A stretch of DNA of 64,000 nt from the NCBI RefSeq assembly GCF_024170465.1, contig NZ_JALJYF010000001.1, positions 992,001-1,056,000 on the forward strand, written 5' to 3'. The notes under the pieces were generated by a model. The model worked only from the letters and a program-made list of their open reading frames with translations, did no database searches and was not told the origin of the DNA. The translations under genes were made by a program, and so were the position numbers. Shown here piece after piece: positions 59,852-63,681 of this stretch (within the stretch, counting starts at the first letter, position 1; each line of letters begins with the position of its first letter). This stretch comes from Natronospira proteinivora (GTDB lineage Bacteria > Pseudomonadota > Gammaproteobacteria > Natronospirales > Natronospiraceae).

Positions 59852-62626
59852 ATGCTGATTGACGACATTCTGGAAGATCTCCGGGCCGAGGAGCGCACCA
59901 TCGATGACGCCTTGAGCGAAATCCGCCGGCGTGCTTCCGAAGAAAGCGAGGCCTTGGACCTTCCCACGCTTCATGAAAGGGTCAACCAGTCCCAACAGAA
60001 GGGACTGCTCCCTGCCCATGCCCGCCAAATTCGACATTGCCTGGACGGGGCCATGTCGGCCATGGAACACCGGTTCCAGGAAAAGCCCCAGGAGAATTTC
60101 GATGACTGGGGTGACTATGAGCTGGAACTTACGCTGGAACCCATTGATGAGCCCGTCCCCAAAGACGAGCGGAGCGAGACCGGCGAAGAGGAGACGGGCA
60201 GCGAGGATGAGGAAGAGGAGAAGGATGGGCTGGAGCTCCCGCCCCTCAATCGCCCCTCAGCTGACAGCGGACGGCCGGCCGAGGCCCCATCCACCCCGGC
60301 CGCACAAAACCCTTCGGAAGACGATTCAGGTCCCCACAATTCTGGGGATGAACATCCGGGAGAGAATGGGGCGGCGGAGGGGCTGCCGTCGGTGGAAGAT
60401 GATCCCGATGCGGACCATGAAGTCATCCTCGAGACCGGAAAAGATCATCACTCGGAACGTTTCGAGTCCGAAGAGGAAGAACAGGCGTTCTATACCACCA
60501 TGGTGGGAGCCCTACTGGGGGGGCGGTTTGAGCTGCTGAACCGGATCAGCCAGGACCCCTACGGCACCGTCTATCGGGCCCGGGACCATGAACGGGATGT
60601 GGATGATGCCGAAGCCCAGCTCTGTGCCGTTCGGGTGCTGCCCTCGGCGCTCTCCAAGCAGAGCAAGGTGGTGGATCGTGTGGAAGCCGTGGTCCGGCGC
60701 ATGCAGCGCTTACAACACCGCAATCTGCTGACCCAGCGGGAACTGTACCGGGACGGGGATCAGGCCTGGCTGGTTTCCCCGCTGCCTCCCGGCGGGACCC
60801 TGGCGCGATTCATTCGCCGGGAATGCGTCAAGGGATTGCCCCTGGATCGGGTCCTGAAAATTGTGCGCGAGATTGCCGAAGCCCTGCACGCAGCCCATGC
60901 TCAGGATGTGGCACACGGGGATCTCAAGCCGGCCAGCATCTATATTGGCGAGAATGACGAAATCAAGGTCGGGGATTTCGGCCTCAGAATGGCTCTATTC
61001 GGCAAGCAATCACCCGCCGGGCAAGCCGGTTCCACGGAAATGGAACAGATGGAACCCATTGATGCCTACCGCAGCATGGAAGCCATGGAAGGCTCGCCGC
61101 CCCAACCCTCAGACGATATCTACGCCCTGGCCTGTATCGCCGCCACCCTGCTGACGGGCAGTCACCCATTTAATGGCCAATCCGGTCTCCGGCGAATGGA
61201 GAGAAACACCTCCCTGCCCCGCATACGGGGCCTGAGTGGTAATCAGAACCGGGTGCTGAAACGGGCCGCAGCCATTCAACGCGAGGACCGTCCGGATTCG
61301 GTGATGGCCTTCCTAGCGGATCTGGAAAGCCGACACGGGGAACTGCCCAAGAAGCAGATCGGCGTCGGGGTGGCAGCGGTGATCGCACTGGCCGCGGCCT
61401 GGTTCCCCCTTCAAATATGGCTGGATCACCGAGACCAGCAATCCCAGATCAACGAAATTCTGGATGCGGATTGGAATGAGACCCGCGGCATTCTGAACCT
61501 TCTGGATGACGACGAGCTGGCTTCCATGCGGGATGATCTGGGTAATTCCCTGGTGCCGCAGTATGCCAGCCGGGTGCGGGATCATCTGGCGGATGAAGAA
61601 CCTCTGGATGCCGCCGATCTGCTGGCGGAAGGACGTCGCTACTTCCCGGAATCCGAGACACTGCTGACCCTGCAAGGCGAAGTGGAAGAGAGTCGCGAAC
61701 AGCTTAGCCAGGAGACCGCCACGCAACTGCGCAACCGCCTGGACGCCGGCGATCTGGTGGCCCGGGATGATGAGATGGATGCGCCCGAACTGGTGGGCCG
61801 CCTGGAACGGCTTGCTCCGAACCATGAACTGGTGGATTCGGATTTCCTCAAACAGCAGTATCGGCAAGCCGCCATCCGGGCGGTGGAAGCGGCAGATATG
61901 GACCAGGTGGAGGGCCTATTGGACGCCGCGCAAGCCCTCTTTGATGACAAGACCCTGGAACAGGCACTCCGGGAAGCTCAGGCCGAGGCGGAAACCCGGC
62001 GATCAGAACAGGCGCTGGAAACCCTGGCACCCCGTCTCGCGGATCAGCTCCCACCAGAGAATCTGGCCGACATTGAAGCACTGTCCGAAAACTGGCAGGC
62101 GCTACAGCGCATGAGTGGCCATCACCCCCTGTTCGCAGAGCACAATGAGGCCGTAATGAGCATTCTCAGCGCCTCCATCAATGAATTGATTGCGGCTGGT
62201 CACTGGTCCCAGGCCAATGATGAGCTACGGGAATACGCGCCCTTGTGGGTGTCGGATGAATTGCGCGCCCAACGACGGGAGCTGACCCGTTTGCAACTGG
62301 CCGCCAACTACCGCCCGGCCTCCCTCAGGGCCGAACGCCAGGGACTCAATGAACGCCGGGCCCGGGTGGAAGCCTTGATCGAAGAACCGCGAATGACACC
62401 GGTCTGGAGCGGGGAGCTGGTCATCGCCTGGCGGGATATGCTGGCCTGGATGCGGCCGGGCCGGGACTGGCTGACGGATCTGCGGGATGAAATCGAAACC
62501 CTTTATGTGACGGCCATCGAAGCACAGATCGAGGACGGTGATCTGGAGCGGGCCGAGCAGCTGGCCCGGGAAGGCCTGGCCGTGACCGCCGAGCTGCGTG
62601 AACTGAACCGCTACGTTTCGCCCTAG
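59852..62626 (+). CDS. Membrane protein with degenerate Hanks-type Ser/Thr kinase domain
   Basis: A 924-residue protein. Residues 1-80 are a helical N-terminal segment, and about 85-215 an acidic, low-complexity linker. Residues 223-495 resemble a protein kinase: HGDLKPAS has Asp357 and Lys359, DFG has Asp375, and SDDIYALACIAATLLTGSHPF marks the F helix. Several key residues are altered: the glycine loop is ISQDPYGTVY, the beta-3 lysine is Arg261 (CAVRVLP), and the metal-binding Asn is Ser362. One membrane helix follows (503-524), then about 400 helical, charged residues predicted to be periplasmic. I do not recognise the whole architecture. It may be a pseudokinase or an atypical kinase. The ATG has AAAGGG five bases upstream. 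Confidence 0.75.
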   Translation: MLIDDILEDLRAEERTIDDALSEIRRRASEESEALDLPTLHERVNQSQQKGLLPAHARQIRHCLDGAMSAMEHRFQEKPQENFDDWGDYELELTLEPIDEPVPKDERSETGEEETGSEDEEEEKDGLELPPLNRPSADSGRPAEAPSTPAAQNPSEDDSGPHNSGDEHPGENGAAEGLPSVEDDPDADHEVILETGKDHHSERFESEEEEQAFYTTMVGALLGGRFELLNRISQDPYGTVYRARDHERDVDDAEAQLCAVRVLPSALSKQSKVVDRVEAVVRRMQRLQHRNLLTQRELYRDGDQAWLVSPLPPGGTLARFIRRECVKGLPLDRVLKIVREIAEALHAAHAQDVAHGDLKPASIYIGENDEIKVGDFGLRMALFGKQSPAGQAGSTEMEQMEPIDAYRSMEAMEGSPPQPSDDIYALACIAATLLTGSHPFNGQSGLRRMERNTSLPRIRGLSGNQNRVLKRAAAIQREDRPDSVMAFLADLESRHGELPKKQIGVGVAAVIALAAAWFPLQIWLDHRDQQSQINEILDADWNETRGILNLLDDDELASMRDDLGNSLVPQYASRVRDHLADEEPLDAADLLAEGRRYFPESETLLTLQGEVEESREQLSQETATQLRNRLDAGDLVARDDEMDAPELVGRLERLAPNHELVDSDFLKQQYRQAAIRAVEAADMDQVEGLLDAAQALFDDKTLEQALREAQAEAETRRSEQALETLAPRLADQLPPENLADIEALSENWQALQRMSGHHPLFAEHNEAVMSILSASINELIAAGHWSQANDELREYAPLWVSDELRAQRRELTRLQLAANYRPASLRAERQGLNERRARVEALIEEPRMTPVWSGELVIAWRDMLAWMRPGRDWLTDLRDEIETLYVTAIEAQIEDGDLERAEQLAREGLAVTAELRELNRYVSP

Positions 62627-62640
62627 TCAGGATCAATCAT

Positions 62641-62685
62641 GGTCCCGGCCCAATCATGATCGGCCGGGACCTTTGATTTATTTTT
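62641..62685 (+). terminator. Terminator after the kinase-like gene
   Basis: Perfect ten-base arms GGTCCCGGCC (62641-62650) and GGCCGGGACC (62662-62671) enclose an 11-base loop and are followed by TTTGATTTATTTTT. It lies between convergent genes. On the minus strand the methyltransferase would enter it too, but no T-run follows on that side. Confidence 0.75.
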
Positions 62686-63502
62686 CAGCCACTACGTAGC
62701 AGATCCAGCCGGCGTCGGCCTCGCCATGGGCCGCCGGGGTAAACTCACCATCCCCCTCGCCGCTTTCTTCATCGGTGCCTTCCCAATACACCGTCACCCG
62801 GGCAAACCCGGCTTCCTCCAACAACTCTTGGATTTCCGGCAGGGTCCACATGCGCCAGTGATAGGTGAAGGCCTTCTTGAGCTCCGAACCATCCGGAAAG
62901 GCAAAGTGGATGTGGCAGGTCATCTCGCCAGTGATGGGATCGTAGTGCGCCTGGTCCCAGATATAATCAAAACCGTCGCACTCCCGCTCTTCTTCCAGTT
63001 CCCGAAAGGCGTCATAGCCACCGAAGGCATCCAGGAACAGGACCCCGTCTTCGGCCAGATTGGTGCGGGCCTTCTCGAAATAGGTCCTGAGCGCCTTGCG
63101 GGTCTTGAACAGGTAGTAGCTGAAGTTCATGGCCAACAAGGCATCTACCGGCTCAGTCTTGGCGGTCATCACATCGCCTTCGATTAGCTGGATGCGGGCC
63201 TGCTGTTCCTTCTCAAGACGCCCCACGTGGTGTTCACGCCCCCAGGCTAGCACCTCGCCGTCCAGGTCCACGCCCACTGCGGTGTGCTCCTCATGACGCC
63301 GCACCCACTCCGCGGAGGAGTTACCCGTTCCGCAGAAGTCTTCTCTCAGGGTGATGGGTTCCCGGCCGCGGATTTCCTCGAAAACCGATTCCACGAAATC
63401 CATTTCTGCTTCCGGTTCCTGCACCGATTGCTCATAGAGGATATGCCGGTCCGCCTGACTGGCCATGCTGTTTTTCTTTGACCCACGCTTGCTCTTTGCC
63501 AT
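62678..63502 (-). CDS. Class I SAM-dependent methyltransferase
   Basis: A 274-residue methyltransferase. Motif I is LREDFCGTGNSSAEWVRRHEEHTAVGVDLDGEVL with the SAM-binding glycines and acidic Asp. VDALLAMNFSYYLFKTRKALRTYFEKARTNLAEDGVLFLDAFGG forms motifs II and III. The substrate is unknown. ATG 63502 starts MAKSKRGSKKNSM, a basic N-terminus; an in-frame TTG at 63508 is less likely. It is divergent from the peptidase gene across 179 bases. Confidence 0.85.
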   Translation of the reverse strand: MAKSKRGSKKNSMASQADRHILYEQSVQEPEAEMDFVESVFEEIRGREPITLREDFCGTGNSSAEWVRRHEEHTAVGVDLDGEVLAWGREHHVGRLEKEQQARIQLIEGDVMTAKTEPVDALLAMNFSYYLFKTRKALRTYFEKARTNLAEDGVLFLDAFGGYDAFRELEEERECDGFDYIWDQAHYDPITGEMTCHIHFAFPDGSELKKAFTYHWRMWTLPEIQELLEEAGFARVTVYWEGTDEESGEGDGEFTPAAHGEADAGWICYVVAEK

Positions 63503-63681
63503 TTCCAACCCTTTAACGATTCAAGACGAACACACGATGGATGATTTTCCCGTGCTCAACTGAGATAATCCAAGCCGTTTGGCCGGTATTCAAAGGGCGC
63601 ATTGTACGCAGAAATGCGCCGTGACGCCCTACCCCCTTTGGCCGGCCCCGGTATCCAAGACAACCCTTCGGAGTGCAATCG

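Follow-up and report, generated by a model that had tools for sequence, protein, structure and literature searches.

What becomes of a receptor-type protein kinase when the residues for catalysis have gone while the gene is retained? This question is raised by a gene of Natronospira proteinivora, a member of a genus of soda-lake bacteria, that lies near the end of the window, that is, the whole stretch of 64,000 nucleotides that was analysed (contig NZ_JALJYF010000001.1, positions 992,001 to 1,056,000, forward strand), in a genome of 2.93 Mb (G000). The original prediction, made from the letters of the DNA, described the product as a single-pass membrane protein with a degenerate kinase-like domain and a long outer domain, and suggested a sensor or a scaffold.

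Coding frame and domain architecture

The predicted reading frame is confirmed, and its features are collected in Table 1 by their positions in the window. The gene is alone in its orientation, being divergent with respect to the ABC-transporter genes and convergent with the methyltransferase gene. A chance reading frame is excluded because a stop-free frame is found in three Natronospira species at 48–50% identity. Just 3' of the stop codon, a perfect 10-bp GC-rich dyad was spotted by eye (62641–62671); with a loop of more than 8 it falls outside the list of the terminator scan.

Table 1. Features of the pseudokinase locus (positions in the window)
Feature	Position	Strand	Basis
Pseudokinase gene, 924 aa, ATG start	59852..62626	+	ORF call, translation
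N-terminal helical domain, residues 2–75	59855..60076	+	pLDDT about 90–97 to residue 70; alignable across lineage
Acidic disordered linker, residues 78–213	60083..60490	+	pLDDT < 50; composition
Kinase-like domain, residues 216–497	60497..61342	+	Pfam PF00069; PknA fold match Z 29.5
Degenerate glycine loop SQDPYG (vs GxGxxG), residues 233–238	60548..60565	+	motif comparison
Arg261 replacing β3 Lys (AVRV)	60632..60634	+	motif comparison
Val280 replacing αC Glu	60689..60691	+	alignment column Glu in ≥ 90% of rows
HGDLKPAS, residues 355–362: Asp357 kept, Asn to Ser362	60914..60937	+	motif comparison
DFG, residues 375–377, intact	60974..60982	+	motif comparison
Membrane helix, residues about 502–524	61355..61423	+	hydropathy scan; helix in model
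Outer all-helical, probably TPR-like domain, residues 526–924	61427..62623	+	model pLDDT 92.9 (526–918); tail alignment
SAM-dependent methyltransferase gene, syntenic anchor in most relatives of the order	62678..63508	-	neighbour comparison

In Pfam, residues 236–454 of the 924-aa protein match Pkinase (90.8 bits, E 1.3e-25), and a scan of the whole protein to E 1 returned Pkinase and PK_Tyr_Ser-Thr only. The profile search of residues 525–924 that had been proposed gave no significant Pfam match, and neither did residues 1–216. A known-family label was sought and rejected, since the Pfam matches are generic kinase models and the NCBIfam matches all lie far under their cut-offs.

The structure of the full protein was modelled with 44 homologues as input, and the model has a mean pLDDT of 82.9, with confident regions at residues 1–70, about 220–390, 410–490, and 530–920. 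In this model the kinase-like domain has a complete fold, which superposes on PknA over 265 residues (Z 29.5, rmsd 3.0). The acidic linker of the original prediction is disordered in the model and has 47 Asp and Glu among the 137 residues from 77 to 213, and the single membrane helix agrees with a hydropathy scan of the whole protein, which found no second hydrophobic segment comparable to 502–524. The well-modelled helical domain at residues 2–75 had been overlooked. The outer tail, modelled alone, is all helical as anticipated (pLDDT 92.9 for 526–918). In profile and fold searches of solved structures it gave weak matches to TPR and designed-repeat proteins, and its VIA-align Z scores (at most 8.0) are uninformative for helical repeats; the tail is probably a TPR-like helical domain. 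The protein is also very poor in lysine (17 Lys and 83 Arg), with 2 Lys in the 399-residue outer tail.

Catalytic residues and selective constraint

The HGDLKPAS and DFG motifs are present as predicted, and Arg261, Ser362, and the degenerate glycine loop, which reads SQDPYG or SHDPYG in the genus, are common to all three Natronospira species. The description as pseudokinase-like is strengthened by a further loss that had escaped the original prediction, that of the αC Glu, in whose position the source protein has Val280 and the two sister species Val or Ile. Hence four elements, the GxG, the β3 Lys, the αC Glu, and the catalytic-loop Asn, are missing in each of the three species, whereas Asp357, Lys359, and DFG (Asp375) are invariant among them. 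Outside Natronospira, Lys, Glu, and Asn are kept in every one of the 41 readable homologues, two of which have the same kinase-region sequence, and GxGGM in all 40 that have the loop present.

The original prediction had reasoned that homologues with intact Lys and Asn would mean local drift. Such homologues are indeed found in 41 of 41 cases outside the genus. Within Natronospira, however, the changes are fixed, and no long domain is better conserved than the kinase-like one, at 63–65% identity between the source protein and the two other species, so that this is a lineage-wide conversion instead. Lysine-poor composition was considered as a cause of Arg261 and rejected, because four other kinase-like reading frames of the same genome keep the β3 Lys, two of them being similarly poor in lysine (6–8 Lys vs 25 Arg). 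The alignment of the three species contains no invariant N-lobe Lys, so no WNK-like substitute is evident. Judged by these residues, catalysis has presumably been lost in the Natronospira protein, and the intact Asp357, Lys359, and DFG would be compatible with residual nucleotide binding or an atypical activity.

The protein as a whole is 48–50% identical among the Natronospira species, whereas the neighbouring genes reach 70–89%. Between the source protein and its two congeners, the linker is 33–39% identical, most of the tail 37–39%, and the tail end (816–924) 58–59%. In the codons of the kinase-like domain, positions 1 and 2 agree in 71–81% of cases and position 3 in 42–45%. The codon pattern and the domain identities together indicate fast evolution, yet under purifying selection on the protein, with the pseudokinase domain and the tail end under the strongest constraint.

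Origin of the gene and the ancestral module

The original prediction could not assign the protein to a described family. This holds only in part, as the protein belongs to a gammaproteobacterial lineage of STK-TM-repeat-FGE kinases, which lie in PpkA/PppA-like type VI loci or have two-partner-secretion (TPS) genes as neighbours. It is a shortened orthologue of this ~1450-aa lineage. The full-length relatives in Natronospirales (1444–1513 aa) consist of the N-terminal domain, an intact kinase, the membrane helix, a longer helical tail, and a C-terminal FGE-sulfatase domain. Natronospira shares with the lineage the N-terminal domain, the kinase fold, the membrane helix, and the first ~390 residues of the tail. 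In the full-length relatives, unlike in Natronospira, the catalytic residues are complete, the protein continues for ~500 residues to end in FGE, and a PP2C is adjacent.

Homology to the relatives spans the kinase, the membrane helix, and the tail, and the syntenic place within the order also matches: the methyltransferase gene adjoins the kinase gene in the source window and in the relatives, and genes for an M28 peptidase, tRNA-dihydrouridine synthase, and TypA lie nearby in congeners and relatives. Orthology is firm because of this synteny and not because of the kinase tree, in which Natronospira has a very long stem and is not placed inside its order; a clade of Natronospira with its order is not rejected (p-AU 0.34). 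In the tail tree the genus groups with its closest relative outside the genus (G003, g2), and the position of this group within the order is not given. The g2 relative also ends without an FGE domain, and its kinase status is unreadable because its contig starts inside the tail.

The locus of the relatives comprises a methyltransferase gene, in some a cyclase-FHA gene, a SHOCT-like gene, the kinase gene, and genes for PP2C, TpsB, and TpsA. Of this region Natronospira keeps the kinase-derived gene and, as its neighbours, the genes for the methyltransferase and an M28-type peptidase; the remaining module genes are gone from the locus. By Pfam and alignment, its protein ends before the FGE domain, which is also missing, or cut at a contig end, in some other members of the lineage. 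There is no adjacent PP2C in the source window or in L038 and L039; the two PP2C genes of the source genome are both far from the locus. Nowhere in the genomes G000–G003 are ShlB, the TPS domain, or the SHOCT partner found, IcmF-related matches are absent in G000–G002, and only G004 and G006–G008 have orthologues close to the L040 cyclase.

In the wider family, 71 of the 369 gammaproteobacterial genomes give a match to the tail profile, and about 30 of these matches are strong. PP2C adjacency at the homologue loci was scored with a six-frame scan, and PP2C adjoins the kinase in 37 of 41. Four loci are without it: L046, which lies at a contig edge, L125, L050, and L052. L125 (299-4402) is the exception to the pairing: its kinase is intact, and the 13 kb of sequence read on its upstream side contain no PP2C. 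At L050 (8517-10316, G017) and L052 (9142-10917, G010) the orthologue is cut to 591–599 aa with a short tail and DFS in place of DFG, and no PP2C, SHOCT, or TPS genes are nearby; L052 is also without 8 residues just ahead of the αC Glu. DFS alone is no proof of inactivity. At L132 (9326-11623) a tail reading frame starts inside the kinase C-lobe and is accompanied by a separate FGE reading frame and a SHOCT gene, with no PP2C; the kinase domain and the phosphatase may have been lost together there, or the gene may be in decay. Missing PP2C thus coincides with kinase damage in two further lineages (L050/L052 and L132).

Beside the lineage kinases lie further genes, for SHOCT proteins, for TpsB/TpsA, for a class III cyclase that carries an FHA domain, or for type VI secretion. 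STK-TM-repeat-FGE kinases stand beside PP2C at L040–L047 and L133–L139, many adjoining two-partner-secretion genes, and no name was found for them. A module of STK-TM-repeat(-FGE) and PP2C, often with cyclase-FHA and SHOCT(-FGE) genes and TpsB/TpsA, recurs at L040–L045, L047, L049, L051, L133–L136, L138, and L139, and it resembles a pathway of threonine phosphorylation coupled to two-partner secretion. In part of these loci the SHOCT-like partner is itself fused to FGE (L139:12491-14329, PF03781, 164 bits; L134:9668-11953; L135:6452-8713), which places a second FGE protein beside the kinase gene. A search of plasmids gave kinase-domain matches only, among the matches listed. No description of a module combining two-partner secretion with a kinase and a phosphatase was found in the literature, as far as the portions of text available to us extend. 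A kinase-FGE fusion had earlier been noted in chlamydiae as NirV/DUF323 (PMC1262709).

Likeness to known systems and probable function

Type VI secretion: This export system is controlled by PpkA, PppA, and Fha (PMC10482370). Related kinase and PP2C pairs, the kinases carrying FGE, lie inside type VI loci with IcmF and TagF at L061–L064 and L141, and with DotU at L061. The Natronospira locus differs from PpkA/PppA in having no IcmF match in the genomes named above, no adjacent PP2C, and an incomplete catalytic set. In Acidovorax, PpkA without catalytic activity continues to form foci and to bind TssW, but catalysis is required for type VI function (PMC12607579), so retained binding alone is insufficient there.

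EssB/YukC: These proteins of type VIIb secretion have the same order of parts, namely a pseudokinase, one membrane helix, and an all-helical outer domain, and YukC is a central T7SSb component that does not bind ATP (PMC9600267). In contrast, the Natronospira protein has no EssB/YukC Pfam match, comes from a Gram-negative host, and carries an outer domain of ~400 residues as against ~140. More kinase motifs are lost in EssB than in the Natronospira protein (PMC12599244), whose gene is outside any type VII locus.

Pseudokinase families: DYD pseudokinases share with Natronospira the replacement of the β3 Lys by Arg, the absence of the αC Glu, and membrane association, but they come from actinobacteria and firmicutes and differ in having the catalytic-loop Asn and the DYD motif (PMC12599244). 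GLW pseudokinases are likewise proteobacterial and have a membrane helix C-terminal to the kinase-like domain; they carry GLW for HRD and Leu or Trp for Lys (PMC12599244), whereas Natronospira keeps HGD at 355–357 and has Arg for Lys. The Natronospira protein fits none of the bacterial pseudokinase families compared, DYD being the nearest in motif (PMC12599244).

The most satisfactory explanation is that the protein is probably a catalytically dead membrane scaffold or sensor descended from a receptor Ser/Thr kinase. The signalling order of the ancestor can be sketched from the neighbour genes, by likeness to PpkA/PppA/Fha. Its outer helical-repeat and FGE domain would have sensed or bound something at the envelope, upon which the cytoplasmic kinase would have phosphorylated a target, probably an FHA-domain partner. 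The adjacent PP2C would have reversed the phosphorylation, and the output would have been control of two-partner secretion. In the lineage of Natronospira, the FGE domain was lost along with the genes for secretion, for PP2C, and for the SHOCT partner, and the kinase lost its glycine loop, β3 Lys, αC Glu, and catalytic Asn. A kinase that stays active after the loss of its counter-enzyme is a liability, and the joint loss fits this expectation. The protein itself was kept and probably acts by binding, the outer helical domain to a partner at the envelope and the intact kinase fold, together with the N-terminal helical domain, to partners in the cytoplasm, like YukC/EssB in type VIIb secretion. 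The same part order in YukC/EssB and the continued binding by inactive PpkA make a binding role, as scaffold or sensor, the most likely function. Against this reading, the gene stands alone with no linked partner, and L125 is intact without PP2C.

It is unlikely that the protein is an atypical active kinase or another nucleotide-using enzyme, in which Arg261 stands in for Lys and phosphotransfer or, for example, AMPylation proceeds via Asp357, Lys359, and DFG. The invariance of these residues in the genus speaks for such an enzyme, as do DYD pseudokinases, which with the same Lys to Arg change and lost αC Glu were modelled with ATP (PMC12599244). However, the catalytic-loop Asn of the DYD members is missing as well in Natronospira, the glycine loop and the αC Glu have gone together, the N-lobe offers no invariant Lys as a substitute, and the counteracting PP2C has left the locus. 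We consider it quite improbable that the gene is a functionless remnant on its way out, the module having become purposeless after the secretion genes were lost. The gene changes faster than its neighbours on a very long stem branch, its tail is shortened, it has no linked partner, and other lineages that lost the module have cut or damaged kinase genes. Yet the frames are intact in three species at 48–50% identity, the predicted fold is of high confidence, and the identities of the kinase-like domain (63–65%) and the tail end (58–59%), with the codon positions, reveal purifying selection.

Pseudokinases commonly regulate active kinases. The protein might accordingly act on another kinase or on a PP2C encoded elsewhere in the genome, as a decoy or a regulator, for example in a dimer with an active Hanks-type kinase, and the genome does retain two PP2C genes and several Hanks kinases that look active; however, no genomic linkage to any of them was found, and this role is very improbable. 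Under the preferred reading of a dead scaffold or sensor, the fuller history is tentative, though a real possibility: the receptor kinase of an apparently undescribed two-partner-secretion phosphorylation module would have lost its phosphatase, its partners, and its catalysis while its membrane-spanning body stayed on in the role of scaffold or sensor, and a similar coupling of PP2C loss with kinase damage would have arisen independently in at least one other lineage.

Little work has been done on pseudokinases of bacteria, and for few of them is there an active ancestor to compare. Here synteny shows the active and the dead protein to be orthologues in neighbouring families, and the purpose of a dead kinase is thereby directly testable via domain swaps. 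Moreover, the kinase-phosphatase-FHA module next to two-partner-secretion genes, if real, would extend the type VI threonine phosphorylation pathway to another export system.
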